Shown here piece by piece: positions 51,220-64,000 of a stretch of DNA of 64,000 nucleotides; positions within the stretch are counted from its first letter, which is position 1, and each line of letters begins with the position of its first letter. The translations under genes were made by a program, and so were the position numbers. The DNA is from Ferranicluibacter rubi (lineage in GTDB: Bacteria > Pseudomonadota > Alphaproteobacteria > Rhizobiales > Rhizobiaceae), in assembly GCF_011603255.1 (NCBI RefSeq), contig NZ_JAANCM010000009.1, positions 124,001-188,000 of the forward strand, written 5' to 3'. The notes beneath the pieces are model-generated. The model was not told where the DNA came from. It saw only the letters and a program-made list of their open reading frames with translations, and did no database searches.

Positions 51220-52017
51220 CTATTCGAACCGCTTCTGAAGCGCTATCGCGCCATTCGGGACATTGACCTTCCCCTCATGAATGAAAAAGGCGAAGACGTC
51301 GCGAGGCTGTTTCGGCAGCAGATCAGCCAGCAAGGGAAGCCCGTCAGCCACGCCTCCTGATCTCCAGGCATCGAGGTGTGCTTCCCACTCTGCCAAGCGC
51401 TTCTCGTCATAACAGGTTTCAACATCATCGCTGCCAGTCTGCAAACGGGCGTAGACGAAGTCGGCCGTCACGTCGGCGATCAGCGGATATTCGGCGTGAT
51501 CCGCACAGACGATGGCAACGTTATGCCGACGGGCCATCTCGACGAACTCCGAGACCTGGAAGGAGCTGTGGCGAACCTCCACGGCATGGCGCAGCACCAA
51601 GCCATCCTGCGTTTCCGGAAGCAGGCTTAGAAACGCCTCGAAATCCACCGCATCGAATTTTTTCGTCGGCATGAACTGCCAGAGGATCGGTCCGAGCTTG
51701 GCACCCAACTCCGACAGCCCTTGGCTCAGAAACCGCGTGATCGACTCCCCGGCCTCCGCCAGCACCTTCTTATTCGTGGCATAACGGCTTGCCTTCAGCG
51801 TGAACACGAAATCGTCCGGAACCTCCGATGCCCATTTCGCGAATGTCTCTGGCTTCTGCGAGCCGTAATACGTCCCGTTCACTTCGATAACCTTCAGCGC
51901 CTTGCCGGCAAACTCGAGCTGCCGCTTCTTCGCAAGGCCCTCTGGGTAGAAGGTTCCCTCCCAAGGGTCGAACGTCCAGCCGCCGATGCCGACGCGAATC
52001 GTACCCGCCTTACCCAT
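51220..52017 (-). CDS. DUF72 domain protein
   Basis: A 265-residue protein of the DUF72 TIM-barrel-like family. The N-terminus IRVGIGGWTFDPWEGTFYPEG is diagnostic, followed by ALKVIEVNGTYYGSQKPETF and LRHAVEVRHSSF. The biochemical role of DUF72 is unknown. ATG 52017 has AGGA 9 nt upstream; the frame is open to 52035. It lies 38 nt downstream of uvrA in the same direction and could be co-transcribed. Confidence 0.85.
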   Translation of the reverse strand: MGKAGTIRVGIGGWTFDPWEGTFYPEGLAKKRQLEFAGKALKVIEVNGTYYGSQKPETFAKWASEVPDDFVFTLKASRYATNKKVLAEAGESITRFLSQGLSELGAKLGPILWQFMPTKKFDAVDFEAFLSLLPETQDGLVLRHAVEVRHSSFQVSEFVEMARRHNVAIVCADHAEYPLIADVTADFVYARLQTGSDDVETCYDEKRLAEWEAHLDAWRSGGVADGLPLLADLLPKQPRDVFAFFIHEGKVNVPNGAIALQKRFE

Positions 52018-52055
52018 GCCGCCCGTTCCTTTCACTCGTTCTTCGCAAGCCCGCG

Positions 52056-54977
52056 TTATTCCGCAGCCACGGCCTTGCGGACCGGGCGGCGCTCAAGCAG
52101 TTCCTTCAGGAAGTGGCCAGTGTGCGAACGCTTCTCCCGGACAATCTGCTCCGGCGTCCCCTCGGCCACGACCTGACCGCCGCCATCCCCGCCTTCCGGA
52201 CCAAAGTCGAGGATCCAGTCCGCCGTTTTGATGACCTCCAGATTGTGCTCGATCACGACGACGGAATTGCCCTGGTTGACGAGTTCGTGCAGTAATTCCA
52301 GCAGTTTCGCCACATCGTGGAAATGCAGGCCGGTGGTCGGCTCATCCAGAATATACAGCGTCCGTCCGGTCGATCGCTTGGAGAGTTCCTTGGCCAGCTT
52401 CACGCGTTGCGCTTCGCCGCCCGACAGGGTGTTCGCCTGCTGCCCGACCTTGATATAGCCGAGCCCGACCTCGTTGAGCGTCACCAGCTTGTCGCGCACG
52501 GCGGGGACCGCCGCGAAGAACTCGACGCCTTCCTCGACGGTCATGTCCAGCACGTCGGCGATCGACTTGCCCTTGAAGGTGACGTCAAGGGTTTCGCGAT
52601 TGTAGCGTTTGCCGTGGCAAACGTCGCAGGTCACATAGACGTCCGGCAGGAAGTGCATCTCGATCTTGATGACGCCATCGCCCTGGCACGCCTCGCAACG
52701 CCCGCCCTTCACATTGAAGGAGAATCGCCCCGGCTGATAGCCGCGGGCCTTCGCCTCCGGCAGGCTGGAAAACCAGTCGCGGATGGGGGTGAACGCGCCG
52801 GTATAGGTGGCGGGGTTCGAGCGCGGCGTGCGGCCGATCGGCGACTGGTCGATGTCGATGACCTTGTCGATATGTTCGAATCCGTCGATCCGGTCGTGAT
52901 CGGCCGGGATCTCGCGCGCGCCCATCACGCGACGGGCCGCCGCCTTGTAGAGCGTTTCGATGAGGAAGGTGGACTTGCCGCCGCCGGAAACGCCGGTGAC
53001 CGCCGTAAAGACGCCGAGCGGAATAGACGCCGTGACGTTCTTCAGGTTGTTGCCGCGCGCGCCGACGACCGTCAGCTCCTTCTTTTTCTTCGGCTTCCGC
53101 CGCTCCGCCGGCACCAAGACCGAGAGATCGCCCGAAAGATACTTGCCGGTCAGAGACGTCGGATGATCGATGATCTCCTGCGGCGTGCCGGAGGCCACGA
53201 CCTGTCCGCCATGGATGCCGGCCGCGGGACCGATATCGACGACATAATCCGCCGTAAGGATCGCGTCCTCGTCATGCTCTACCACGATAACCGTGTTGCC
53301 GATATCGCGCAGGTGCCGCAGCGTATCGAGCAGGCGGGCATTATCGCGCTGATGCAGTCCGATCGACGGCTCGTCCAGCACATAGAGCACGCCTGTCAGG
53401 CCGGAACCGATCTGCGAGGCGAGCCGGATGCGCTGGCTCTCGCCACCCGACAGCGTACCGGAATTTCGCGAGAGGCTGAGATAATCCAGCCCGACATCGT
53501 TCAGGAATCGCAGCCGATCACGGATCTCCTTCAGGATACGGACGGCGATCTCGTTTTGCTTGTCCGTCAGACGCGCAGGCAGATCCTCGAACCAGTCGCG
53601 TGCGACACGGATCGACATGTTCGTGACCTCGCCGATATGAAGGCGATCAATCTTGACCGCCAATGCTTCGGGCTTCAGCCGGAAGCCCTTGCAGGCGGGG
53701 CAGGGGGCCGCAGACATGTAGCGCTCGATTTCCTCACGCGCCCAAGCCGACTCGGTTTCCTTCCAGCGCCGCTCGAGGTTTGGAACGATGCCCTCGAATG
53801 TCTTCGTGGTGTTGTAGGAGCGCGCGCCGTCCGCATACTGGAAGACGATCTTGTCGTCCGTGCCGCGCAGGATCGCCTTCTTCGCAGCGTCAGAGAGTTC
53901 AGCCCAAGTGTTGCTCAGCTTGAACCCAAAGGTTTTGCCGAGCGCTTCCAGAGTTTGATTGTAATAGGGGGACGACGATTTGGCCCAAGGCGCGATCGCC
54001 CCGTTCTTCAGCGTCCGATCATGCTCCGGCACGATCAACGCCTCATCAATCTTCTGCTGGCTGCCGAGACCATCGCAGGTCGGGCAGGCCCCAAAGGGGT
54101 TGTTGAACGAAAACAGGCGGGGTTCGATCTCCGAAATCGTAAAGCCGGAGACGGGGCAGGCGAACTTTTCCGAAAACAGCACGCGCTCATGCGTCTCGTT
54201 CAGCGACTTGTTGGCCGAACCGCCGGCGGATGTCTCCTTCTCCGGTAGCGGCTTGTCAGCAAATTCCGCAATCGCCAAGCCATCCGCAAGCCGCAACGAG
54301 GTTTCCAGACTGTCCGCAAGCCTTGCCGCGATATCGCCTCGCACCACCAACCTATCGACGACCACGTCGATGTCATGCTTGTACTTCTTATCGAGCGCGG
54401 GAACATCGGCGATCTCGTAGAACTGACCGTCTACCTTTACACGCTGAAAGCCCTTCTTCATGAGCTCCGCGAGTTCCTTCTTGTACTCTCCTTTTCGCCC
54501 CCGGATCATCGGCGCGAGAATGTACAGGCGAGCACCTTCTTCCATCGCAAGAACCCGATCGACCATTTGGCTGACAGTCTGGCTTTCGATCGGCAGACCT
54601 GTCGCCGGCGAATAGGGCACGCCGACGCGCGCGAACAGAAGGCGCATATAGTCGTAGATCTCGGTGACCGTTCCCACGGTCGAGCGCGGATTCTTCGACG
54701 TCGTCTTCTGTTCGATGGAAATAGCAGGCGATAGGCCCTCGATCAGATCGACGTCGGGCTTCTGCATCATCTCAAGGAACTGACGCGCATAGGCCGAAAG
54801 GCTCTCGACATAGCGCCGCTGCCCTTCGGCATAGATGGTATCGAATGCCAGCGACGACTTTCCCGACCCGGACAACCCCGTCATCACGATCAGCTTGTTG
54901 CGCGGGAGGTCGAGATCGACGCCCTTCAGATTGTGCTCCCGCGCACCGCGGATCGAAATGGTCTTGAATTCGCTCAT
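52056..54977 (-). CDS. uvrA: Excinuclease ABC subunit A
   Basis: A 973-residue damage-recognition ATPase of nucleotide excision repair. Two ABC modules: Walker [15 protein letters not shown] near residue 32, signature [16 protein letters not shown], and in the second module [15 protein letters not shown] plus [16 protein letters not shown]. Zinc fingers are visible as CPVSGF...CPTC and CEACQGDG...[10 protein letters not shown]. It is divergent from ssb with a LexA box between them, and its repair partner Mfd is encoded at 39-42 kb. Confidence 0.98.
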
Positions 54978-55129
54978 GGTCGGACGCTCTGCATGGGGAC
55001 GAAGCCCTTACTTAAGATCATTACTTCATATGTCGAGGCGCGTTTTCGGGAAACCACTATTCCTTCGTCACAGTGATCCGGTCTGCGGCCCGTGACGGCC
55101 TCGCTTGACAGGATCATACCCAAGACATA

Positions 55130-55144
55130 GAACAAATAAAGAAC
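55130..55144. promoter_or_regulatory. LexA box (SOS operator) between uvrA and ssb
   Basis: GAAC-AAATAAA-GAAC is an exact match to the alphaproteobacterial LexA consensus GAAC-N7-GAAC. It sits 153 nt from the uvrA ATG and 117 nt before the ssb ATG, so LexA could repress both divergent genes. Confidence 0.85.
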
Positions 55145-55260
55145 AAATTTGCAAACTGTTGTGGATTGCTGGCGGCCGAGGGCGAAATGCCGCGCTCAAC
55201 AGCGTAGGCTCGCGGCACGATGCGGATCGTTGAGCCGCTTTCAGGAGACAGGACAAAGAG

Positions 55261-55800
55261 ATGGCTGGTAGCGTAAACAAGGTGATCCTCATCGGCAACG
55301 TCGGGGCGGACCCCGAGATTCGGCGGACGCAGGATGGCAAGCCGATCGCAAACCTGCGCATCGCGACCTCCGAAAGCTGGCGCGACCGAAACTCCGGTGA
55401 GCGGCGCGAGAAAACGGAGTGGCACACCGTCGTGGTCTTTAACGAAGGCCTGTGCAAGGTCGTAGAGCAATATGTGAAGAAGGGCGCCAAGCTCTATCTC
55501 GAGGGAGCGCTGCAGACCCGCAAGTGGCAGGACAAGGACGGAAACGACCGTTACTCCACGGAGGTGGTGCTTCAGGGCTTTAACTCGACGCTGACCATGC
55601 TCGACGGTCGCGATGGTGGAGGCAGCGGTGGCGGTGGCGGAAGCCGTGGCAGCTCGGAATATGGTGGCGGAAGCGGTGGGTCAAATTACGGCGACGATTA
55701 CGATCGCCCGGCCCAGTCCTCGGGCGCCCGATCGGGCGGTAGCACCGGCGGATCAAGCGGCGGCTTCTCTCGCGACCTGGATGACGATATCCCGTTTTGA
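55261..55800 (+). CDS. ssb: Single-stranded DNA-binding protein
   Basis: A 179-residue SSB. The OB fold occupies about residues 1-110 (MAGSVNKVILIGNVGADPEI, then LRIATSESWRDRNSGERREK and KLYLEGALQTRKWQDKDG). A glycine/serine-rich linker follows, and the acidic tip DDDIPF recruits partner proteins. It protects single-stranded DNA in replication, recombination and repair. The start at ATG 55261 is preceded by AGGAGACAGGACAAAGAG. The LexA box upstream suggests SOS control. Confidence 0.97.
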   Translation: MAGSVNKVILIGNVGADPEIRRTQDGKPIANLRIATSESWRDRNSGERREKTEWHTVVVFNEGLCKVVEQYVKKGAKLYLEGALQTRKWQDKDGNDRYSTEVVLQGFNSTLTMLDGRDGGGSGGGGGSRGSSEYGGGSGGSNYGDDYDRPAQSSGARSGGSTGGSSGGFSRDLDDDIPF

Positions 55801-56011
55801 TTCGCGCAAACCTGCTGCAGGTTGATGCATAAATTCGACGTCTCTTTTGCGCCGTCATGGGTAAGTTCATGGCGGCGTTGCTGTTGTGAAGCTGAGAGAG
55901 GCTGTGCGTTGACAACAAATCTCGTTTTTAAGGGAATGCAGAAAGCAACGCTTCGGACGAGCGCCCCTTGTTGATCATTCTGGATGTGGCTTAACCAGAA
56001 TGCCACTTGCA

Positions 56012-56026
56012 GAACACATGAGGAAC
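56012..56026 (+). promoter_or_regulatory. LexA box (SOS operator) upstream of lexA
   Basis: GAAC-ACATGAG-GAAC is an exact GAAC-N7-GAAC match ending 48 nt before the lexA ATG. It predicts autoregulation of lexA. Confidence 0.85.
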
Positions 56027-56036
56027 ATATAACACT

Positions 56037-56051
56037 GTTCTTGCTTTGTTT
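56037..56051 (+). promoter_or_regulatory. Possible second, imperfect LexA box at lexA
   Basis: GTTC-TTGCTTT-GTTT matches the complementary consensus GTTC-N7-GTTC with one mismatch, 10 nt after the first box. Paired sites at lexA would tighten autoregulation, but a chance match is possible. Confidence 0.4.
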
Positions 56052-56074
56052 CGTGATTCTGGAGTCGATTGATC

Positions 56075-56791
56075 ATGCTGACCCGCAAGCAACAGGAACT
56101 GTTGATTTTCATTCATGAGCGCATGAAGGAATCGGGTATTCCCCCCTCATTCGACGAAATGAAGGATGCACTGGAGCTCGCGTCCAAATCCGGCATTCAC
56201 CGGCTGATCACGGCTCTTGAGGAGCGCGGGTTCATCCGGCGCCTACCCAACCGGGCACGGGCGCTTGAGGTCATCAAGCTGCCGGAGGCGTATCTGGCCG
56301 CTGTCCCGCCGAAGCGCGGTTTTTCGCCGAGCGTGATTCAAGGAAGCCGGGGAAGCTCTGCACCTGAAAACGCGCCGAAGACGACGGCTGGGGTGGGCGA
56401 CGATAATAGCGTGTCGGTTCCGGTGATGGGGCGCATCGCCGCAGGCGTTCCGATTTCCGCCATCCAGAACAATACCCACGATATCTCCGTTCCCGCCTTT
56501 ATGATCGGCAATGGCGAGCACTACGCCTTGGAAGTCCGGGGCGACTCGATGATCGAAGCCGGTATTCTGGACGGTGATACCGTGATCATCCGCAATGCCA
56601 ACAGTGCCAGCCCCGGCGAGATCGTCGTGGCTCTCGTGGATGACGAAGAAGCAACCCTCAAGCGCTTCCGCCGCAAGGGTGCCTCCGTTGCCCTCGAAGC
56701 AGCCAATCCAGCCTATGAGACACGAATTTTTGGCCCGGAACGCGTGAAGGTCCAAGGAAAGCTCGTCGGGTTGATTCGCCGTTATCAGTGA
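56075..56791 (+). CDS. lexA: LexA repressor
   Basis: A 238-residue SOS repressor. The N-terminal winged helix (about 1-65: [20 protein letters not shown], then [20 protein letters not shown]) binds the boxes, and the C-terminal S24 protease domain cuts itself when RecA is active. The scissile Ala123-Gly124 bond is in IAAGVPISA, the nucleophile Ser158 in GDSMIEAG, and Lys196 in ATLKRF. A TTG 2 codons upstream is in frame, but ATG 56075 fits homologues. It is separated from ssb by 270 nt. Confidence 0.97.
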
Positions 56792-57066
56792 AGGGAAGGG
56801 CTTTGCTATTGTGAGGTTGATGAGATCTTGTCGTCATCAGGTTCCAGCACATTGAGCCTTTTCAGCATGCTTTTTGAGGTTTACGTTTTAGACGGTCCTA
56901 GTTGACTACTGTACCGGCGAGGACAGACGGAAATCGCAACCTTCACGTTCTGCAGAGATGCGATTTTGAGGGTCGAGCCATCCACCTCCTTGTCAGTCCG
57001 ACCTTGAGTCGGAGCTTGGCTGTTTAACGTCTATGAGATGAGTAGACACTTTTGAGCGCACGGACG
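56792..57066. other. AT-richer non-coding stretch after lexA
   Basis: About 275 nt with lower GC than the genes before it and no credible reading frame on either strand. I see no hairpin with a T-run that would clearly end lexA. Confidence 0.5.
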
Positions 57067-57564
57067 TCAGGTCGGCGGATGCCGCATCCAGTAGGGGATG
57101 ACGAAGGGGTAGCCGCTGAAATCTCGTGGCGTGAGATGTAGGCAAGCGTCGTCAGCCGTTAAGTTACCGGTCGGCCAGAAATTTGCGCCATCTGTCGTTC
57201 TATTCGTAAAGCGATCAAGCGGAACACGTTCAGTTCTGAGGCCTGCTGCTTTAACGATACCTCCAAGTGAAAGTCTATGGAACCGCATGGGCAGGTCGGC
57301 GTTTACCGGGCGAACACAGCGGAGGTGAACATGCCCGGAACATCGAAAAGCTTTCGGGCTGTCTTCTTTGACCGCAATGAAGCTGACTTTGTGGGAAGCA
57401 CGATGTTGTGAGTATACAGAACCCGGCGAAGTTCAGGATTTAGCAAACGACTTTTTGTAGCACACACAGAGACCATGGCGCTTTCCAGGCTGGGTGAAGA
57501 GGCAGTACGTAAAAGCAATCAAATCGCTGTCTAGCCGAATTACGATCGTGTTGGCGATTTCAGT
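57067..57564 (-). pseudogene. Remnant of a protein-coding gene with an internal stop
   Basis: One minus-strand frame is open and protein-like from 57432 down to the TGA at 57067-57069 (about 121 codons), reading LPMRFHRLSLGGIVKAAGLR, then DRFTNRTTDGANFWPTGNLT and PRDFSGYPFVIPYWMRHPPT. The same frame continues upstream as TIVIRLDSDLIAFTYCLFTQ and PGKRHGLCVCYKKSFAKS across an in-frame TGA at 57433-57435, to another stop at 57565-57567. The only ATG in the lower part is internal, at 57288. Two coherent protein-like segments in the same frame split by a stop suggest a decayed gene; base composition is lower in GC than neighbours. I do not recognise the family. Confidence 0.45.
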
Positions 57565-57636
57565 TCATTTTTTTGGTTTTGCTCACAGCATCATTTACAA
57601 AAAAAACGCGCATTTTCATGCGCTAAGGGATTCATC

Positions 57637-57759
57637 ATGAGAATGATCTTTGTCGGGATGCTTGCATCCGTCCTCAGTATACTTGTGATCAAATATGCAA
57701 ACAATGATCTGGGGAACAGTGTCCCATTGACGACTGTCGGAGCAGCTAGCTCGCTATGA
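57637..57759 (+). CDS. Possible 40-residue membrane peptide
   Basis: The frame starts MRMIFVGMLASVLSILVIKY (one hydrophobic helix, residues 3-19), followed by a polar tail ANNDLGNSVPLTTVGAASSL. AAGGGA lies 6 nt before the ATG. It resembles short pilin-subunit-like or small membrane peptides of rhizobia, but I cannot assign a family. Confidence 0.5.
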   Translation: MRMIFVGMLASVLSILVIKYANNDLGNSVPLTTVGAASSL

Positions 57760-57822
57760 TACCCGGGCATCTCGGCCAGCTGCTCCGATATATTTAGAGA
57801 CTTTATCCGAAGATCAGGCTCA

Positions 57823-58155
57823 TCATTCGTGGATCGTGTAAGATCCCATTTCGCACAAATTTTGCTTGTCTTCCGTCGTTGCGAGATCTGAACCCTCTTC
57901 GAATTCGAAACGCATGTCATAATTACAAACGTCTCGACCATCTGCAATCGTAAGCTCGATCGTCTCGCCGGGATTGAGGACCTGTTCGCCGAACACGTCT
58001 CCCTCCCAATCACTGACACCGACAGGTGACGTGTAGAAGCGCGTGAGAACGGATTTCGTGCCGTTCTTCAGTGTGAACACCAGATCCTCGGCCTGTGCTG
58101 CCCCGGACACAAAAATGGCGCTGATGATAATCGCGCCTGTCGTAATGATTTTCAT
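57823..58155 (-). CDS. Small secreted protein of unknown function
   Basis: A 110-residue exported protein. The signal peptide is residues 1-22 (MKIITTGAIIISAIFVSGAA, cleavage after QA). The mature part EDLVFTLKNGTKSVLTRFYT, then SPVGVSDWEGDVFGEQVLNP and DGRDVCNYDMRFEFEEG, has two cysteines and an acidic C-terminus. Similar short periplasmic proteins occur in rhizobia, often misnamed argininosuccinate lyase. A very strong GGGGGGAAC ribosome site precedes ATG 58155. It is isolated in the gene-poor zone. Confidence 0.72.
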   Translation of the reverse strand: MKIITTGAIIISAIFVSGAAQAEDLVFTLKNGTKSVLTRFYTSPVGVSDWEGDVFGEQVLNPGETIELTIADGRDVCNYDMRFEFEEGSDLATTEDKQNLCEMGSYTIHE

Positions 58156-58622
58156 TGTTCCCCCCGTAAATCTAATATGTCGCCAATGGGTTGACGATAA
58201 AGGGATATTACCGAGTCTCTTGTCGTATTCAACTGGATTGTGGACGTTTGATAAACAGACGAATGCGGTTTCAGACGCGCTGCAAATTCTGAATGCGCGT
58301 TCTCACCATCGTTTACCCAGCAGCTCGGCTGTCATCCTTGCACGGCAAAGAGATTTGAAGATTGTGCGGTGGATTCGTGCGGAAATCTGCGGCGCTCCAC
58401 TGGCTGCCAGCGCTCGCCTACATTCGGAGAATGTAAACTGGACGGCCGCCGTGATCTCGTGGCAACGACGTGACGTCAATCTGTCGCCCGACCCCGTTCT
58501 TGAATTAACGGCAGTCGCGTCCGAGCCCCTTTTGCCAGAACAAAAACCTTACGTCCACCGTGCGTGTCGTTGAGGGCCCCATTTAGGCATTGTTCAGATG
58601 GAAGACTTTGAGGGATGGCGGA
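58156..58622. other. Non-coding stretch left of the insertion sequence
   Basis: About 470 nt between the secreted-protein gene and the IS left end. One long frame crosses it (58043-58573), but it overlaps the secreted protein antisense and has no domain. Nothing else is recognised. Confidence 0.5.
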
Positions 58623-58686
58623 TGACCTGAGCCCCTGAACTTCCGCTAGATTTTGGTAGAGTCCGTCACAATGAGGAGACGGACGA

Positions 58687-59076
58687 ATGAAGCGTTCACG
58701 GTTCACGGAAGAACAGATCATCGGGATATTGAAGGAGCAGGAGGCGGGCGCGAAGACAGTCGATGTCTGCCGCAAGCACGGCATCTCGGACGCAACCTTC
58801 TACAAATATAAGGCAAAGTATGGCGGCATGGACGTGTCGGATGCCCGCAAACTGAAGGCGCTTGAGGACGAGAACGCCAGGCTGAAGAAGCTGCTCGCCG
58901 AGGCCGTGCTGGACAATGCGATCCTGAAGGATGTCGCTGCAAAAAATGGTGACGCCCGATGTGAAGCGGGATGCGGTGGCTCACGTCTGTGCGCAGCACG
59001 GGGTGAGCCAGCGTCGGGCGTGCGAGGTTCTGTCGGTGGATCGGTCGAGCATGCGATATCGCAGCGTGCGGCCTGA
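58687..59076 (+). CDS. IS3-family transposase OrfA (DNA-binding subunit, extended C-terminus)
   Basis: A 129-codon frame starting MKRSRFTEEQIIGILKEQEA, the helix-turn-helix N-terminus of IS407-type OrfA, with a leucine-zipper stretch (KLKALEDENARLKKLLAEAV). The normal product should end near residue 88, shortly after VLDNAILKDVAAK. Here the A-run (58941-58946) has six A, and the frame instead continues through unrelated sequence to 59076. With one more A the frame would end in KKW and a TGA, as in many relatives. The extra 40 residues are therefore probably not native. Confidence 0.75.
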   Translation: MKRSRFTEEQIIGILKEQEAGAKTVDVCRKHGISDATFYKYKAKYGGMDVSDARKLKALEDENARLKKLLAEAVLDNAILKDVAAKNGDARCEAGCGGSRLCAARGEPASGVRGSVGGSVEHAISQRAA

Positions 59077-59786
59077 CGATGCATCCATCCGCGAGGCCAT
59101 GACGAAGCTGGCGTCCGAACGGCGGCGCTTCGGTTATCGCCGTATCCACGTCATGCTGCGACCGGCAGGGGATCGTCATGAACCTGAAGAAGCTTCGGCG
59201 TCTCTACCGGGAGGAGAAGCTGACGGTGCGCAAGCGTGGCGGCCGAAAGCGGGCCTTGGGCACGAGACGTCCTCTGGCTTTGCCGTCGCGTCCGGGCGAG
59301 CGCTGGAGCCTGGACTTCGTCAGCGATGCCTTCACCGACGGTCGCCGCTTTCGGGTCCTGGCCGTCGTCGACGACTTCACCCGAGAATGCCTATGCCTGG
59401 TTGCCGATACATCCCTGTCAGGCGCAAGGCTTGCCCGTGAACTGGACAGTCTCATCGCCAGATGCGGAAAACCGAGGACGATTGTCTCGGACAACGGGAC
59501 GGGGATGACCAGCATGGCCATCCTCAAATGGTGCCAGGAGACCAAGGCGGAATGGCATTACCTCGCCCCCGGCAAGCCGATGCAAAACGGCTTCGTCGAA
59601 AGCTTCAACGGCAGCTTCCGCGATGAGTGCCTGAACGAGACGCTGTTCTCGTCGCTCACTCAGGCCCGCGCCGCAATCACTGCATGGAAGGAGGATTACA
59701 ACAGAAACAGACCGCACTCGTCGCTGGGCAACATCACCCCCAACGAGTTCGCAATGAAAATAGCTATGGAAAAACACGCCGCATGA
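58946..59786 (+). pseudogene. IS3-family transposase OrfB (DDE integrase core), frameshifted
   Basis: OrfB would start at ATG 58946 (MVTPDVKRDAVAHVCAQHGV). The first part reads on to [13 protein letters not shown] in one frame. Near 59160-59170 homology jumps to another frame, which continues [16 protein letters not shown] and then the DDE core: [20 protein letters not shown] and [19 protein letters not shown]. The sequence CGACCGGCAGGGG is one base longer than the expected text, consistent with a +1 insertion. The catalytic residues are intact, but the product cannot be made in one piece, so the element is probably immobile unless supplied in trans. Confidence 0.8.
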
Positions 59787-59849
59787 GGCCAGATTAAAAA
59801 CCCAAAACTCTCCCGAAAACTGGAGGGAAAGTGGGTCTCAGGTCACGGA

Positions 59850-60121
59850 GTATGCCCCTATTCGCCGAGCGAACACCGCGTATATTCGAACGTCCGCCTG
59901 CATTGAGGCAGGCCGGAGAGCGTCCACATCATGAAGAGGGGATATAGCTATCTAGGTTCTAAGATGGCTTTGTTTTCAGAACCTTCTGGTTCCTGCAGGA
60001 TATGAGGAGGGAGCAGAAAGTAAATGGATCGCCACACCAAATTTAGTGTGGCAGAACATTAGAGGCCCAAACTGCCACACCACAGAAATAGATGAGGGGT
60101 TTCTATGCCTTGAAATGGCGT
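59850..60121. repeat. Intergenic region with inverted repeats beside the att-like site
   Basis: No credible gene lies here. GCCACAC (60031-60037) and GTGTGGC (60046-60052) form an inverted repeat with an 8-nt AT-rich spacer. GTGTGGCAG (60046-60054) is again complementary to CTGCCACAC at 60072-60080. So one motif occurs three times within 50 bp. These could be recombinase or accessory-protein sites next to the attachment site, which is inference. Confidence 0.5.
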
Positions 60122-60211
60122 TGGAGGCCTCGCCCGGAATTGAACCGGGGTGCAAGGATTTGCAGGCTAAATCCTTTGCATCCACGGGAATTCGGGACTC
60201 GCCATTTCACC
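60111..60211. repeat. Imperfect 100-bp palindrome around the tRNA-Cys fragment
   Basis: The outer arms TGAAATGGCG (60111-60120) and CGCCATTTCA (60202-60211) are exact complements. The inner arms TGCAAGGATTT and AAATCCTTTGCA are complementary except for one bulged base and flank the 7-bp centre GCAGGCT (60162-60168). Between them CCCGGAATT and AATTCGGG also match. A central 7-bp spacer with inverted flanks is the geometry of a tyrosine-recombinase crossover site. Confidence 0.7.
60122..60165 (-). other. attL-like site: 3' half of tRNA-Cys (GCA), no matching 5' half
   Basis: On the minus strand this segment reads as the 3' half of a tRNA: anticodon loop CTGCAAA (anticodon GCA), stem TCCTT, a 5-bp T-stem CCCGG / CCGGG with loop TTCAATT, acceptor strand CGAGGCC, discriminator T and encoded CCA. 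GCA with U73 is the hallmark of tRNA-Cys. The 5' half that should pair (GGCCTCG and a normal D-arm) is absent. Upstream stands GGCGAGT and a leucine-tRNA-like D region, and six extra bases lie between the AAGGA and the loop. The segment directly adjoins the integrase, so it is best read as the left end of an element integrated at tRNA-Cys. Confidence 0.7.
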
Positions 60212-60318
60212 TTGTTAAATAACACTTTCGATTGACGAATATTCTTTACACCTTTATCAAAATTCCATCGAAAAAGTGGTCCCGGGACTCGCTCGGGCGT
60301 ATTTGGTGGGTGCAAAGA

Positions 60319-61509
60319 ATGGGGACTCAGCGCTTAACGGCCGAGGTTGTTAAATCACTTCCGTCGGATGGGAAGGATCGCCTTTACTTCGACGACCTTG
60401 TTCAAGGATTCGGCGTGCGCGTGACATCCACGGGCAGCCGGTTGTTCATCGCACAGCGCCGGATTGGCGGTAAGCCAATCCGGGTGTCCATCGGCAGATT
60501 TCCTGAGATGTCCGTCTTGAAGGCTCGCGAAGAAGCGAGGGCCATCCTTAACACCATGGGGCAGGGGGTCGACCCGAGAAAGGTTCAGGTTGCTCCCGTT
60601 ATATCGGAGTTGAGTTTCGCCGATGCCACTGACAAATGGCTGAATGAACACGTCCGGCTCAAGCTGAAGGATTTGACGGTTCGTGACTATGAAAAAATAG
60701 CCGACGAATTGAAAACGCGGTTCATCGATAGGACCCTCGCTTCGATATCGAAAGACGACGCGCGCAAACTTCACGCCGACAAGTCAGCCACGGCGCGTCG
60801 GGCAAACTACTATTTGGCCGTCCTGTCAGCAATCTGCAACTACAGCGACAACCTGTTCGTGACCAAAGGCGTGAAGCGATTCCGCGAAAACCGGCACGAA
60901 CGGATTATGACGACCGACGAAATGGAGCGAGCGTTTGGCGCCCTGCACCAAGTTGAAGCGGACAAGACTGTTTCCGTTTTTGCATGTGCTGCCATCAGGT
61001 TTGCGATCCTCACAGGCGCGCGCCCTGCGGAAATCAAAGCGATCGAATGGAAGCACCTCGACCATGAAAGAAAGCGTGTCGTGTTGGAGGATTCGAAGGC
61101 GAACCGCCAGCGCATAATCTACACGAACGAGGCAGCCTGGACGGTCCTCAACTCGGTGCCTCATTTCGGAAAGTTCGTGTTTGCCGGCGAGAAAAAGAAC
61201 ACAGCCTATTCGCGTCTCACGAATGCTTGGACGAAAGTTCGGAAGGTCGCCAAGTTGCCTGACGTGCGGCTCTATGATTGCCGACATTCCTTCGCGTCGC
61301 AGGCTGCGATGGCGGGGCACAACCTTCCGATGATCGGTGCTTTGCTGGGGCATACCGTTGCGGCGACGACGCAACGCTACGTGCATCTCGTTGGCGATCC
61401 AGCGAGCCAGGCATCGGAGGATGTAGGCAAACGCATGGCCGCGGCAATGGCAGGAGCATCAGCGGCGAAAGGTGCGACTCCCATGAAATCGAGGAAGAGA
61501 AGTGGTTGA
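60319..61509 (+). CDS. int: Tyrosine-type site-specific integrase
   Basis: A 396-residue integrase with an N-terminal DUF4102-type arm domain (DLVQGFGVRVTSTGSRLFIA), a SAM-like core-binding domain (about 95-175) and a C-terminal catalytic domain. Catalytic residues: Arg235 (LTGARPAEIKAIEW), Arg322 in LYDCRHSFASQ, His345 (LLGHTVAATTQRY) and the nucleophile Tyr354. At the first position of the H-x-x-R pair there is Tyr319, not the usual His. I start at ATG 60319; the frame is open to a TTG at 60232 inside the att region. It faces into the element, and its attachment site is probably the tRNA-Cys fragment upstream. Confidence 0.93.
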   Translation: MGTQRLTAEVVKSLPSDGKDRLYFDDLVQGFGVRVTSTGSRLFIAQRRIGGKPIRVSIGRFPEMSVLKAREEARAILNTMGQGVDPRKVQVAPVISELSFADATDKWLNEHVRLKLKDLTVRDYEKIADELKTRFIDRTLASISKDDARKLHADKSATARRANYYLAVLSAICNYSDNLFVTKGVKRFRENRHERIMTTDEMERAFGALHQVEADKTVSVFACAAIRFAILTGARPAEIKAIEWKHLDHERKRVVLEDSKANRQRIIYTNEAAWTVLNSVPHFGKFVFAGEKKNTAYSRLTNAWTKVRKVAKLPDVRLYDCRHSFASQAAMAGHNLPMIGALLGHTVAATTQRYVHLVGDPASQASEDVGKRMAAAMAGASAAKGATPMKSRKRSG

Positions 61510-62221
61510 GCACATCCTTGACGCCGACTACTCAACGCAGCTGCTTGAGACGGTCCTGAAGCACTTTCCGGCTATCGGACGCAAGCGCGCGGAAGACCTC
61601 GCGGAGTCTGCGGACTACGATATCCGACAGTGCATTGCGCGCCTTGGGTCGAGGGATCTTCGCCGTCGGCGCGGCGCCGTGGTTGTCGAAAACGTTCACA
61701 CGGCGAGAAGTCCGGCTGCAAACCTGAAACGGCGCTTGGAGGCAGTCCGCTCCAGATCGCAGTGGAGATATCTGAAGGCGCGCGCGGAAAGTACAGACGT
61801 TATCGAAGATTTTCGGCGAGACGCGATCGAGCAGCTCGGCGTCTTCGAACAGGCTTGCAATTTGAGTCATTTGACGATGCTCGCCGCCGCGGTATTCGAC
61901 GGGCAGGACGGGTGGGCACTCGAGGAGAGAATCCTCGAGCGTGCGAAGGAGTCGGCGGCGCTGGGGCGCCGCCAGAGGCATTCATGGGAAGACGACGCGC
62001 TCGTTGAGATTGTATGCCTATGGTCCTCATGCAGCGGCCGGCGCCCGCCGATGATCGGTCCGGGAAGAAAGACGCCCATCGATCGGAAAGGTGAGATGAC
62101 CGCATTCGTCCAGGACGCGCTCGCCTGCTACGCAGGTCGCGGCGTTGATCACATATTTCCTGGCGCCTCGACCAACAGCTGGCGGCGCGTCGTGCTGAAG
62201 TACCGCGAACAATTTCTCTGA
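61502..62221 (+). CDS. Unknown protein encoded behind the integrase
   Basis: A 239-residue basic protein beginning at GTG 61502, overlapping the integrase stop. Residues 1-60 contain a helical ILDADYSTQLLETVLKHFPA segment and RKRAEDLAESADYDIRQCIA. A basic arginine-rich patch (GSRDLRRRRGAV) follows, then long helices to about residue 175. The C-terminus has CLWSSCSGRRPPMIGPGRKT and a terminal FPGASTNSWRRVVLKYREQF. I do not recognise a family. Overlap with int suggests that it is an element function made from the same transcript. Confidence 0.72.
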   Translation: MVEHILDADYSTQLLETVLKHFPAIGRKRAEDLAESADYDIRQCIARLGSRDLRRRRGAVVVENVHTARSPAANLKRRLEAVRSRSQWRYLKARAESTDVIEDFRRDAIEQLGVFEQACNLSHLTMLAAAVFDGQDGWALEERILERAKESAALGRRQRHSWEDDALVEIVCLWSSCSGRRPPMIGPGRKTPIDRKGEMTAFVQDALACYAGRGVDHIFPGASTNSWRRVVLKYREQFL

Positions 62222-62225
62222 TTGT

Positions 62226-62244
62226 CAGAAATGGCCAATTTCTG
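62226..62244. promoter_or_regulatory. Inverted repeat upstream of the excisionase-like gene (possible operator)
   Basis: CAGAAAT-GGCCA-ATTTCTG is a perfect 7-bp inverted repeat with a 5-nt spacer. It starts 5 nt after the preceding stop and lies 78 nt before the HTH gene at 62322. It could be an operator for an element regulator. Confidence 0.4.
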
Positions 62245-62321
62245 GATAGGATTTTCTCGGCATAATTCTGCATTTTCTCTTCATTCGCGGAACAATCGCG
62301 AAGTTATGGAGGGAACTAGAA

Positions 62322-62510
62322 ATGACCGACGATCTATTCGACGAAGACGAGGCCGCGAAAATTCTCCGCCAAAAGCCCCGAACGCTGACCGTATGGCGCT
62401 CAACCGGCAAGGGGCCGCGATTTCTAAAACTTGGCCGCCGGGTCTTCTATCGCAAAGAGTGGCTGACGGACTTTCTTGCGACATGCGAAGTCGATCCTAG
62501 CGCACGCTAG
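62322..62510 (+). CDS. Small helix-turn-helix protein (excisionase/AlpA-like)
   Basis: A 62-residue protein with one HTH_17/MerR-like domain: LFDEDEAAKILRQKPRTLTV, then WRSTGKGPRFLKLGRRVFYR and KEWLTDFLA. This is the layout of phage excisionases and AlpA-type regulators, where W-R-x-T-G-K-G-P-x-F-x-K-L-G-R-x-V-x-Y is characteristic. Downstream of an integrase it probably controls integrase direction or expression. The ATG has GGAGG in GGAGGGAACTAGAA upstream. Confidence 0.85.
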   Translation: MTDDLFDEDEAAKILRQKPRTLTVWRSTGKGPRFLKLGRRVFYRKEWLTDFLATCEVDPSAR

Positions 62511-62546
62511 GACACCCATCACCCCCCGAAAATTTGGAGTTCTGAC

Positions 62547-63326
62547 ATGACGGAAAATCATGACGGCGAAGCTGCGCCAAATACAGCGCTGACACTTGAA
62601 GATATCGGCGGCGAACTTCGGATCGAAGACACCATTCTAGGCAAAAGGCTTGGTTTTTCCGAGCCGAAGAAAATTCGTCCGTTGATCAAACGGCATGCCG
62701 CCGCCCTGGAGAAGTTCGGGGCCCGGCTTACGGTGAGCCGGGTCGTCAACGGCGGTGCGGCGGAGGTGAGTTACCTGAACCGCCAGCAGGCAATTTTCAT
62801 CACGGCAAAATCCGGTACGGAGGTTGCGACGCAAGCCACGATCGAGATCGTCAAGCGTTTCGACGAGCTTGAGCAAAATAGTCGCCAGAATGCGCCTCAG
62901 TTTGCCGTACCACGGACCCTTGCGGATGCGCTTCGCCTCGCGCTTGAACAAACGGAGAAGGTCGAGCGCCAAGCCGCGCAAATTGATGCGATGAAAACCG
63001 ACATCCAAGTTCTCGAGCGAATCCAAAAAGCCGACGATCTGTATGGGATCCGGCAAGCAGCCCAGATCCTTCAGGTTGAAGAGAAAAAGTTCACAGCGTG
63101 GCTGGTCGCGAATAGGTGGTGCTTTCGGCATCCCGGCAGCGCCGTTCTCATGGCCTTCGCGGACAAGCGACGGGCGCCGAGACAGTTCGCTGTTCACAAG
63201 CTCGAAACGTTTGAAAAGCGCGACGGAAGCCAAGGATCACGGGAGACCCTGAAATTCACGACCGCCGGCATTTCAAGGCTTGCTGCCGAATTCAACGTCG
63301 CAGACATGTTCGGAGGCGTGCAATGA
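62547..63326 (+). CDS. Phage antirepressor-type protein with KilAC domain
   Basis: A 259-residue protein. The N-terminal part (about 1-110: RLGFSEPKKIRPLIKRHAAA, then YLNRQQAIFITAKSGTEVAT) resembles phage regulatory N-domains. A linker helix (ALEQTEKVERQAAQIDAMKT) follows, then a KilAC/ANT C-terminal domain (about 160-255: YGIRQAAQILQVEEKKFTAW, HPGSAVLMAFADKRR, FTTAGISRLAAEFN). Antirepressors of this kind antagonise phage repressors. Its stop overlaps the next start (ATGA), so the two genes are coupled. Confidence 0.82.
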   Translation: MTENHDGEAAPNTALTLEDIGGELRIEDTILGKRLGFSEPKKIRPLIKRHAAALEKFGARLTVSRVVNGGAAEVSYLNRQQAIFITAKSGTEVATQATIEIVKRFDELEQNSRQNAPQFAVPRTLADALRLALEQTEKVERQAAQIDAMKTDIQVLERIQKADDLYGIRQAAQILQVEEKKFTAWLVANRWCFRHPGSAVLMAFADKRRAPRQFAVHKLETFEKRDGSQGSRETLKFTTAGISRLAAEFNVADMFGGVQ

Positions 63327-64000
63327 CATCTCAAAGAAAAGCCGACCAGAGCGCCAACTCTGACCGGCCCAATAGCAAGTCTCACAATTCACTTAGAATA
63401 GTCCGCAATACCCAAGATGGCAAGCAATCGCTCGCGAAAACGCCATGGCTCTGGCAGGAGGCAATGATGTCCGCCGACCTGCCGGCATCGGCCTTCCGAG
63501 TCGCCCTTGCCATCTTGAAGTTCATCAATCGTGAAAGTGGCCGATGCTTCCCGAGCTTCGAAACCATCGCTGCCGCGACTACGCTATCCGTGGCTGGCGT
63601 TCGTAAGGGTGTCGCCGCGCTCCGCAAGGCGGGCTTCCTAGTGACAACGAAATCGGGTTTCAACCGATCACTCGACTACCAAATCCAGCTTCCAACCGCT
63701 GAAATGGACGCCGGTGAAACGTCCCAAACAGGGCGCACGAACCGTCCCAAACAGGACGGTCGAAGGGTCCCATTTGGGACGGTCGAACCGCCCCATTTGG
63801 GACCGATAACCTTCGAAGTAACCTCTGAAGAGGAACCTCGGAAAGTAACCATCGGGGACAGCGCATTTAGCCCGGCCCCCAACGCTTCGCGGCCTTCGGC
63901 TCCTTCGAATGATAAATCATTCTCAGGGGGGCCTGCCGTATCAGGCGCCGGCGAAGGGAGAGAATTTTTCGCTATCGAAGGAAGGGCGGAAGACGACGAA
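63323..64000 (+). CDS. Helix-turn-helix replication-type protein (partial, runs off the window)
   Basis: From ATG 63323 the frame is open through all 226 remaining codons. Residues 50-115 form a winged-helix (HTH_36-like) region: LWQEAMMSADLPASAFRVAL, FINRESGRCFPSFETIAAAT and VAGVRKGVAALRKAGFLVTT. The segment after it is proline- and charge-rich and low in structure (residues about 130-226), as in the central linker of phage O-type replication proteins. The 23-bp iterons lie inside that linker. Function as an origin-binding initiator is inference. The C-terminal part is missing. Confidence 0.72.
   Translation, partial: MTSQRKADQSANSDRPNSKSHNSLRIVRNTQDGKQSLAKTPWLWQEAMMSADLPASAFRVALAILKFINRESGRCFPSFETIAAATTLSVAGVRKGVAALRKAGFLVTTKSGFNRSLDYQIQLPTAEMDAGETSQTGRTNRPKQDGRRVPFGTVEPPHLGPITFEVTSEEEPRKVTIGDSAFSPAPNASRPSAPSNDKSFSGGPAVSGAGEGREFFAIEGRAEDDE
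63721..63812 (+). repeat. Four tandem 23-bp iterons inside the replication-type gene (candidate origin)
   Basis: Copies start at exact 23-bp steps: 63721, 63744, 63767 and 63790. Each begins GTCCCAAACAGG or GTCCCATTTGGG (the last with one change, GCCCCATTTGGG), and the middle copies continue ACGGTCGAA. Copies 1-2 are AAACAG-type; copies 3-4 contain the palindrome GTCCCA-TT-TGGGAC. As 23 is not a multiple of three, the encoded residues differ between copies, so the repeat cannot be a protein repeat. Iterons inside an initiator gene are known from lambda O; origin function here is inference. Confidence 0.8.
63907..63922. repeat. Short AT-rich palindrome downstream of the iterons
   Basis: GAATGAT-AA-ATCATTC is a perfect 7-bp inverted repeat in a locally AT-rich patch about 95 bp past the last iteron, still inside the partial coding frame. 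It could be a melting or protein-binding element, or chance. Confidence 0.4.

Follow-up and report, generated by a model that had tools for sequence, protein, structure and literature searches.

A tandem array of 23-bp units lies inside a phage-type replication gene at the right-hand end of the window (the whole 64,000-nucleotide stretch of Ferranicluibacter rubi DNA analysed here), and it raises the question of whether these units are the iterons of a replication origin or have some other role. Phage lambda is a long-established example of iterons placed within an initiator gene. The gene belongs to an element of which the following features bear on this question.

60121 to 60165, plus strand: att repeat of 45 bp, identical to C42:226036-226080
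60232 to 61509, plus strand: tyrosine integrase (PF00589, phrog_1)
62322 to 62510, plus strand: excisionase-like HTH protein (PF12728, phrog_66)
62547 to 63326, plus strand: antirepressor of the KilAC/Rha type (PF03374, phrog_63), with a 4-base overlap with the initiator start
63323 to 64000 and on to C42:188159, plus strand: O-type replication initiator gene, 278 aa (PF13730 HTH_36, PHROG replication-initiation matches)

The far att copy falls in the 3' portion of a gene for tRNA-Cys, and the element measures 41,960 bp from att end to att end. Genes for an HNH endonuclease, a small-terminase-like protein, the large terminase, the portal and the major capsid protein follow downstream of the initiator, with a lysozyme gene farther on. 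Because 45-bp att repeats, one of them in tRNA-Cys, enclose phage structural genes, and judging from its integrase, terminase, portal and capsid genes, we read the element as an integrated temperate tailed phage. The phage character proposed for it from the window alone is thereby borne out, and the structural genes together with the att repeats led us to set aside a plasmid or a bare island. Other observations were made along this region. An IS21-type pair (IstB and transposase) lies in the prophage past the lysozyme gene (L003:14129-16374), and transposase genes with HTH_Tnp_1 and rve domains stand just outside the left att repeat (window 58687-59786). Two minus-strand ORFs at L003:10332-12423, methyltransferase-like by eye, have their first residues (MNPNNPYPHE) in common. 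An Rfam scan of 52000-64000 gave no match at gathering score.

The initiator ORF passes the window end by 159 bases (full ORF, L002:3824-4660). Its protein matched HTH_36 (PF13730) with 34.3 bits against a Pfam cut-off of 25, and its best PHROGs were all of replication initiation (phrog_270, E 4.7e-10; phrog_678, 1.2e-9; phrog_391, 2.5e-9); lambda O, like the window initiator, matched 678, 391 and 345. These matches agree with the assignment as an O-type initiator made in the earlier note. A Pfam search with the C-terminal part gave no match. The window part of the protein (226 aa) was modelled with AlphaFold2 from a two-sequence alignment, with a mean pLDDT of 57.8. The modelled helices and strands of the winged helix span residues 37-121, with block-mean pLDDT of 76-91 over residues 41-110, while the residues encoded by the array (about 133-164) have low model confidence (block means 44-48). 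The expected order of a winged helix and then a linker is thus found, the linker being the low-confidence stretch of the model. Solved structures searched by the initiator sequence gave two matches, the best at E 0.74. Foldseek of the model against the PDB returned none at E 0.001 (best 1.1e-3), and among the best 50 of 1,710 matches, which were winged helices of a generic kind, a 'Rep-DNA complex' (5kbj) ranked 36th. Against BFVD there were 111 matches at E 0.001, and the best 50 of these were mostly phage HTH proteins; a 'putative replication protein O' and a 'replication initiator protein' each occurred once among them.

The array starts 398 bp into the initiator gene and comprises four units.

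63721 to 63743, minus strand: iteron 1 (predicted), core GTCCCAAACAGGGC, reverse orientation
63744 to 63766, minus strand: iteron 2 (predicted), core GTCCCAAACAGGAC, reverse orientation
63767 to 63789, plus strand: iteron 3 (predicted), core GTCCCATTTGGGAC, perfect 6-bp arms around 2 bp
63790 to 63812, plus strand: iteron 4 (predicted), core GCCCCATTTGGGAC

The four starts (63721, 63744, 63767 and 63790) are exactly 23 bp apart, as had been claimed. The units had also been described as exact copies, which was wrong: they are related but inexact, their 14-bp cores differ, and Tandem Repeats Finder gave a period of 23, 3.7 copies and 74% matches. GTCCCA, said to be common to all, occurs in three of the four units; ACGGTCGAA, attributed to the middle copies, is present in units 2 and 3. 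The core common to all units is TTTGGGAC, on the minus strand in units 1-2 and on the plus strand in units 3-4.

Compared with itself at a shift of 23 bp, the stretch from 63714 agrees at 53 of 69 positions (that from 63720 at 52), and the best lag-23 match elsewhere in the window (1-63600) has 32. No dinucleotide shuffle reached the match fraction of the array at a period between 15 and 40, whether the gene part in the window (0/300) or the whole window (0/60) was shuffled, which excludes a chance repeat, named by the earlier note as one result that would undo its reading. From the first unit to the last the starting frames are 1, 0, 2 and 1, so that, with a period indivisible by three, the encoded peptide has no repeat. 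Synonymous-codon reshuffles that keep the protein never attained the three-copy score of the array (0/200). Selection on the DNA, claimed from the letters alone, is upheld by both results.

We then sought relatives of the initiator. At E 1e-3, 45 of 394 genomes of the family matched (own included), and by far the best non-self match was Rhizobium herbae DSM 26427 (G392; 37%, E 7.1e-27). Its initiator (L006/L039, NZ_JAGGJV010000001.1) has 37-39% identity over the matched part and 33% over the whole alignment, and it too has HTH_36. In the R. herbae gene the corresponding place is occupied by a 23-bp unit in 3.9 copies, with different letters (consensus with GACCAAAnnTG). As read from these sequences, the same spacing with changed letters is the pattern that co-evolving binding sites should show. 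Two of seven genomes matched in the genus search (own included), and the sole non-self match, L012, has no array by scan; four of 397 genomes matched in the order at E 1e-8, again with our own among them. Searching the viral contigs with the single initiator protein found no close relative. A two-sequence alignment search found the R. herbae element and nothing else, once as a viral contig and once as a genome contig, and that element's own protein recovered the same viral contig. The 226 window residues had no match at E 1e-5 among 50,697 phage records, nor did the initiator among plasmid records at 1e-5. At E 1 there were 43 phage records, all below 60% identity, with a best E of 0.01 among the best 10 of 43. 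The L031 and L006 proteins as queries matched no phage record. No paper on this initiator group stood among the top literature matches listed, which does not prove absence. The R. herbae element (L144:448-18999) has a viral-contig record of 17,649 bp and lies beside a tRNA-Ser; its translations, judged by eye, include integrase-, portal-, capsid- and terminase-like proteins, and it is possibly a small phage or a capsid-forming satellite. Next to it is a gene that looks rlpA-like by eye, and one also lies beyond the far end of the window prophage.

The recurrence of such arrays was surveyed with a scan for three copies at periods of 15-40, using 200 codon shuffles and a cut-off of 1 of 200. The loci were those returned by the searches, best first, at most 30 per search. 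Group A comprised 32 of the 33 loci L005-L037, window gene included (L010 was dropped for stops in frame). Among the 89 loci L041-L129, 26 were dropped as repeat places or as our own gene, and four for stops in the match (L063, L064, L066 and L086). The remaining 59 were divided into group B (n = 22), whose members reached E <= 1e-6 in one search or more, and group C (n = 37), in which one locus was too short; L055 and L062 were kept in group C despite a stop in the match. The counts are not independent, since the groups hold near relatives (such as L030-L033). In one genome, at G059:C1:3530475-3531232, the initiator of the L031 group appears as two overlapping matches in different frames.

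Significant arrays were found in 24 of the 54 O-like ORFs examined (window gene included): 15 of 32 relatives from the protein search and 9 of 22 from the family models. Their periods were 21 (one array), 22 (six), 23 (seven), 24 (four), 33 (five) and 34 bp (one). In the control set of weak HTH matches, 4 of 36 passed, with periods of 18, 22, 27 and 39; the 22-bp array among these (L125) is at the expected place. A second control, long ORFs of the window and prophage chosen mechanically and cut at 1500 nt, gave 2 of 56 at a cut-off of 0 of 100 shuffles, one of them a glycine-rich nonapeptide repeat. Lambda O, as a positive control, had a best period of 23 but was reached by 2 of 200 codon shuffles, just outside the cut-off, and was not counted; uneven spacing therefore lowers the sensitivity of the scan, and the 30 of 54 O-like ORFs without a significant array may include unevenly spaced ones. 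Homologues that keep the protein but lose the 23-bp spacing had been named as counter-evidence to internal iterons, and here the relatives divide: R. herbae retains the spacing with other letters, whereas these 30 ORFs, L012 among them, have no array by scan. Across another initiator group (L131-L139), the fraction of identical codons at unchanged residues was 0.945 in the array, 0.934 before it and 0.828 after it for the seven close relatives, and 0.878, 0.864 and 0.751 for all nine, which is suggestive at most because the part before the array is about as conserved.

The survey also provides what can be said for selection at the protein level, with the repeat acting as a low-complexity linker. 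Arrays whose period is a multiple of three are repetitive in the peptide as well; of 10 such ORFs, 7 had a score that 3 to 9 of 200 synonymous reshuffles attained, which makes DNA-level selection less certain there. Among the 13 with periods of 22 or 23, 11 were never reached, and L044 (2/200) and L035 (14/200) were. For the window array, whose units span three frames, encode a peptide without a repeat and have a score that no reshuffle attained, we regard this explanation as extremely improbable.

The opposed orientation of units 1-2 and units 3-4 makes the whole array an inverted repeat as well, with 37-nt arms that are 76% complementary, a feature absent from the earlier note. As single-stranded DNA the array folds at -29.3 kcal/mol (z -6.4), and none of 200 shuffles was equally stable. 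Such a fold could indicate that the array is selected as an mRNA or single-stranded DNA hairpin, or that it is a neutral tandem duplication, rather than a set of binding sites. The hairpin is however a consequence of palindromic units standing in 2+2 inverted order; moreover, the R. herbae homologue retains the spacing but not the letters, and the 24 arrays have periods of 21-24 and 33-34 bp only. We consider a hairpin or duplication origin of the pattern very unlikely. In the palindrome test 2 of 40 column shuffles equalled the window array, and 10 of the 24 arrays passed at 2 or fewer of 40, so palindromic units are not established as general. Three initiator-like genes with 33-bp arrays (L036, L011 and L049) gave 0, 0 and 2 of 40.

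Palindromic units would suit a dimeric regulator, and the nearest solved folds (best 50 of 1,710) are of MarR-type and other regulators. The units might accordingly be operators through which the initiator or another repressor controls transcription through the gene, with replication starting elsewhere. Against this, the array begins well inside the gene, at the 398-bp offset given above, other initiator-like genes likewise have arrays following the winged helix, and no comparable site exists elsewhere in the prophage. With a matrix derived from the array's own four units, the units scored 16.4-20.6 and the next-best site in the 41,960-bp prophage 13.7. One chance site in the 58 kb outside the prophage scored as high as the weakest unit, so the lack of further sites in 42 kb is mild evidence, and it mildly favours an origin over scattered operators. 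We judge operators without origin function improbable, while autoregulation could operate alongside origin function.

Lambda and its relatives provide the closest comparison. Lambda iterons are described as inverted repeats of imperfect symmetry with an AT-rich tract beside them (PMC7466680); the same source has lambda O binding them within its own gene while the neighbouring AT-rich tract opens; it also describes Stx-phage O genes with six iterons inside O, of which two extra ones add 13 residues to the protein (PMC7466680). In the lambda sequence (J02459) the four annotated in-gene iterons are 20, 24 and 23 bp apart and, like those of the window gene, lie in more than one frame. The window array differs in its regular 23-bp period and 2+2 inverted order, where lambda spacing is uneven, in having no strong AT-rich tract, where lambda has one by its iterons, and in that the five ORFs tested downstream of its initiator gave no helicase-loader match. 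The Stx-phage genes resemble the window gene in having in-gene iterons and differ from it as lambda does, a likeness drawn from their description. The R. herbae initiator shares HTH_36 and four 23-bp units at the same place, and differs in the iteron letters. By Pfam the window initiator is not lambda O proper: lambda O belongs to PF04492 (Phage_rep_O; 5.7e-36), to which the window initiator had no match up to E 0.1, and the window initiator belongs to PF13730. By analogy a lambda-O-like mode of action is nonetheless the most likely one.

Taken with this comparison, the four 23-bp units are very probably initiator-binding iterons of the prophage origin, placed inside the initiator's own gene. 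In substance this is the reading first offered, a phage initiator gene with internal iterons, its origin function being predicted from sequence. Once the prophage is induced and excised, the winged-helix domain would bind, probably as a dimer, to every one of the imperfectly palindromic iterons. Since 23 bp is about two helical turns, the four initiator-iteron complexes would lie on one face of the DNA and could wrap it into an O-some-like structure, which would open nearby DNA, recruit the host helicase and so give the site its predicted origin activity. One feature might mark the place of opening.

63807 to 63830, plus strand: two adjacent 12-bp words, TAACCTTCGAAG / TAACCTCTGAAG, at the array end and just past it (read by eye)

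These words weakly suggest a candidate unwinding region, and similar words follow the R. herbae (L006) array (by eye); they are in frame, and their repetition may therefore have protein-level causes. AT content is 50% in the 60 bp past the window array and 43% in the gene, where 14% of all 60-mers are equally AT-rich. Across arrays, 22 of 25 had 60 bp past the array that were richer in AT than the ORF on average (Wilcoxon p 2.6e-6), the baseline being the ORF mean and not array-less linkers. No helicase loader was found in five ORFs tested downstream, which gave no Pfam match and only phrog_6836 and phrog_13652, both of unknown function. GC skew, a check suggested in the earlier note, had no clear turn within the prophage's first 19 kb (L002:600-20000) and was uninformative, and the prophage contains no exact DnaA box (TTATNCACA).

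As an array-bearing initiator, the gene is one more case of a principle known from phage lambda; of greater interest is how regular the period stays among arrays that are otherwise unlike. We tentatively propose, as a possibility somewhat short of even, that winged-helix phage initiators of this broad type keep a fixed geometry, with sites at intervals of two or three helical turns in the linker that their own gene encodes, while the letters turn over with the DNA-binding domain. If this is true, each lineage would have a private initiator-site pair, and a single gene would reveal both the origin of an uncharacterised phage and the letters bound there. For this rhizobial prophage, the probable replication origin is narrowed to about 100 bp. 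The survey suggests that in-gene origins could be detected by period alone in varied alphaproteobacterial prophages, which would help in defining phage replicons and shuttle vectors.
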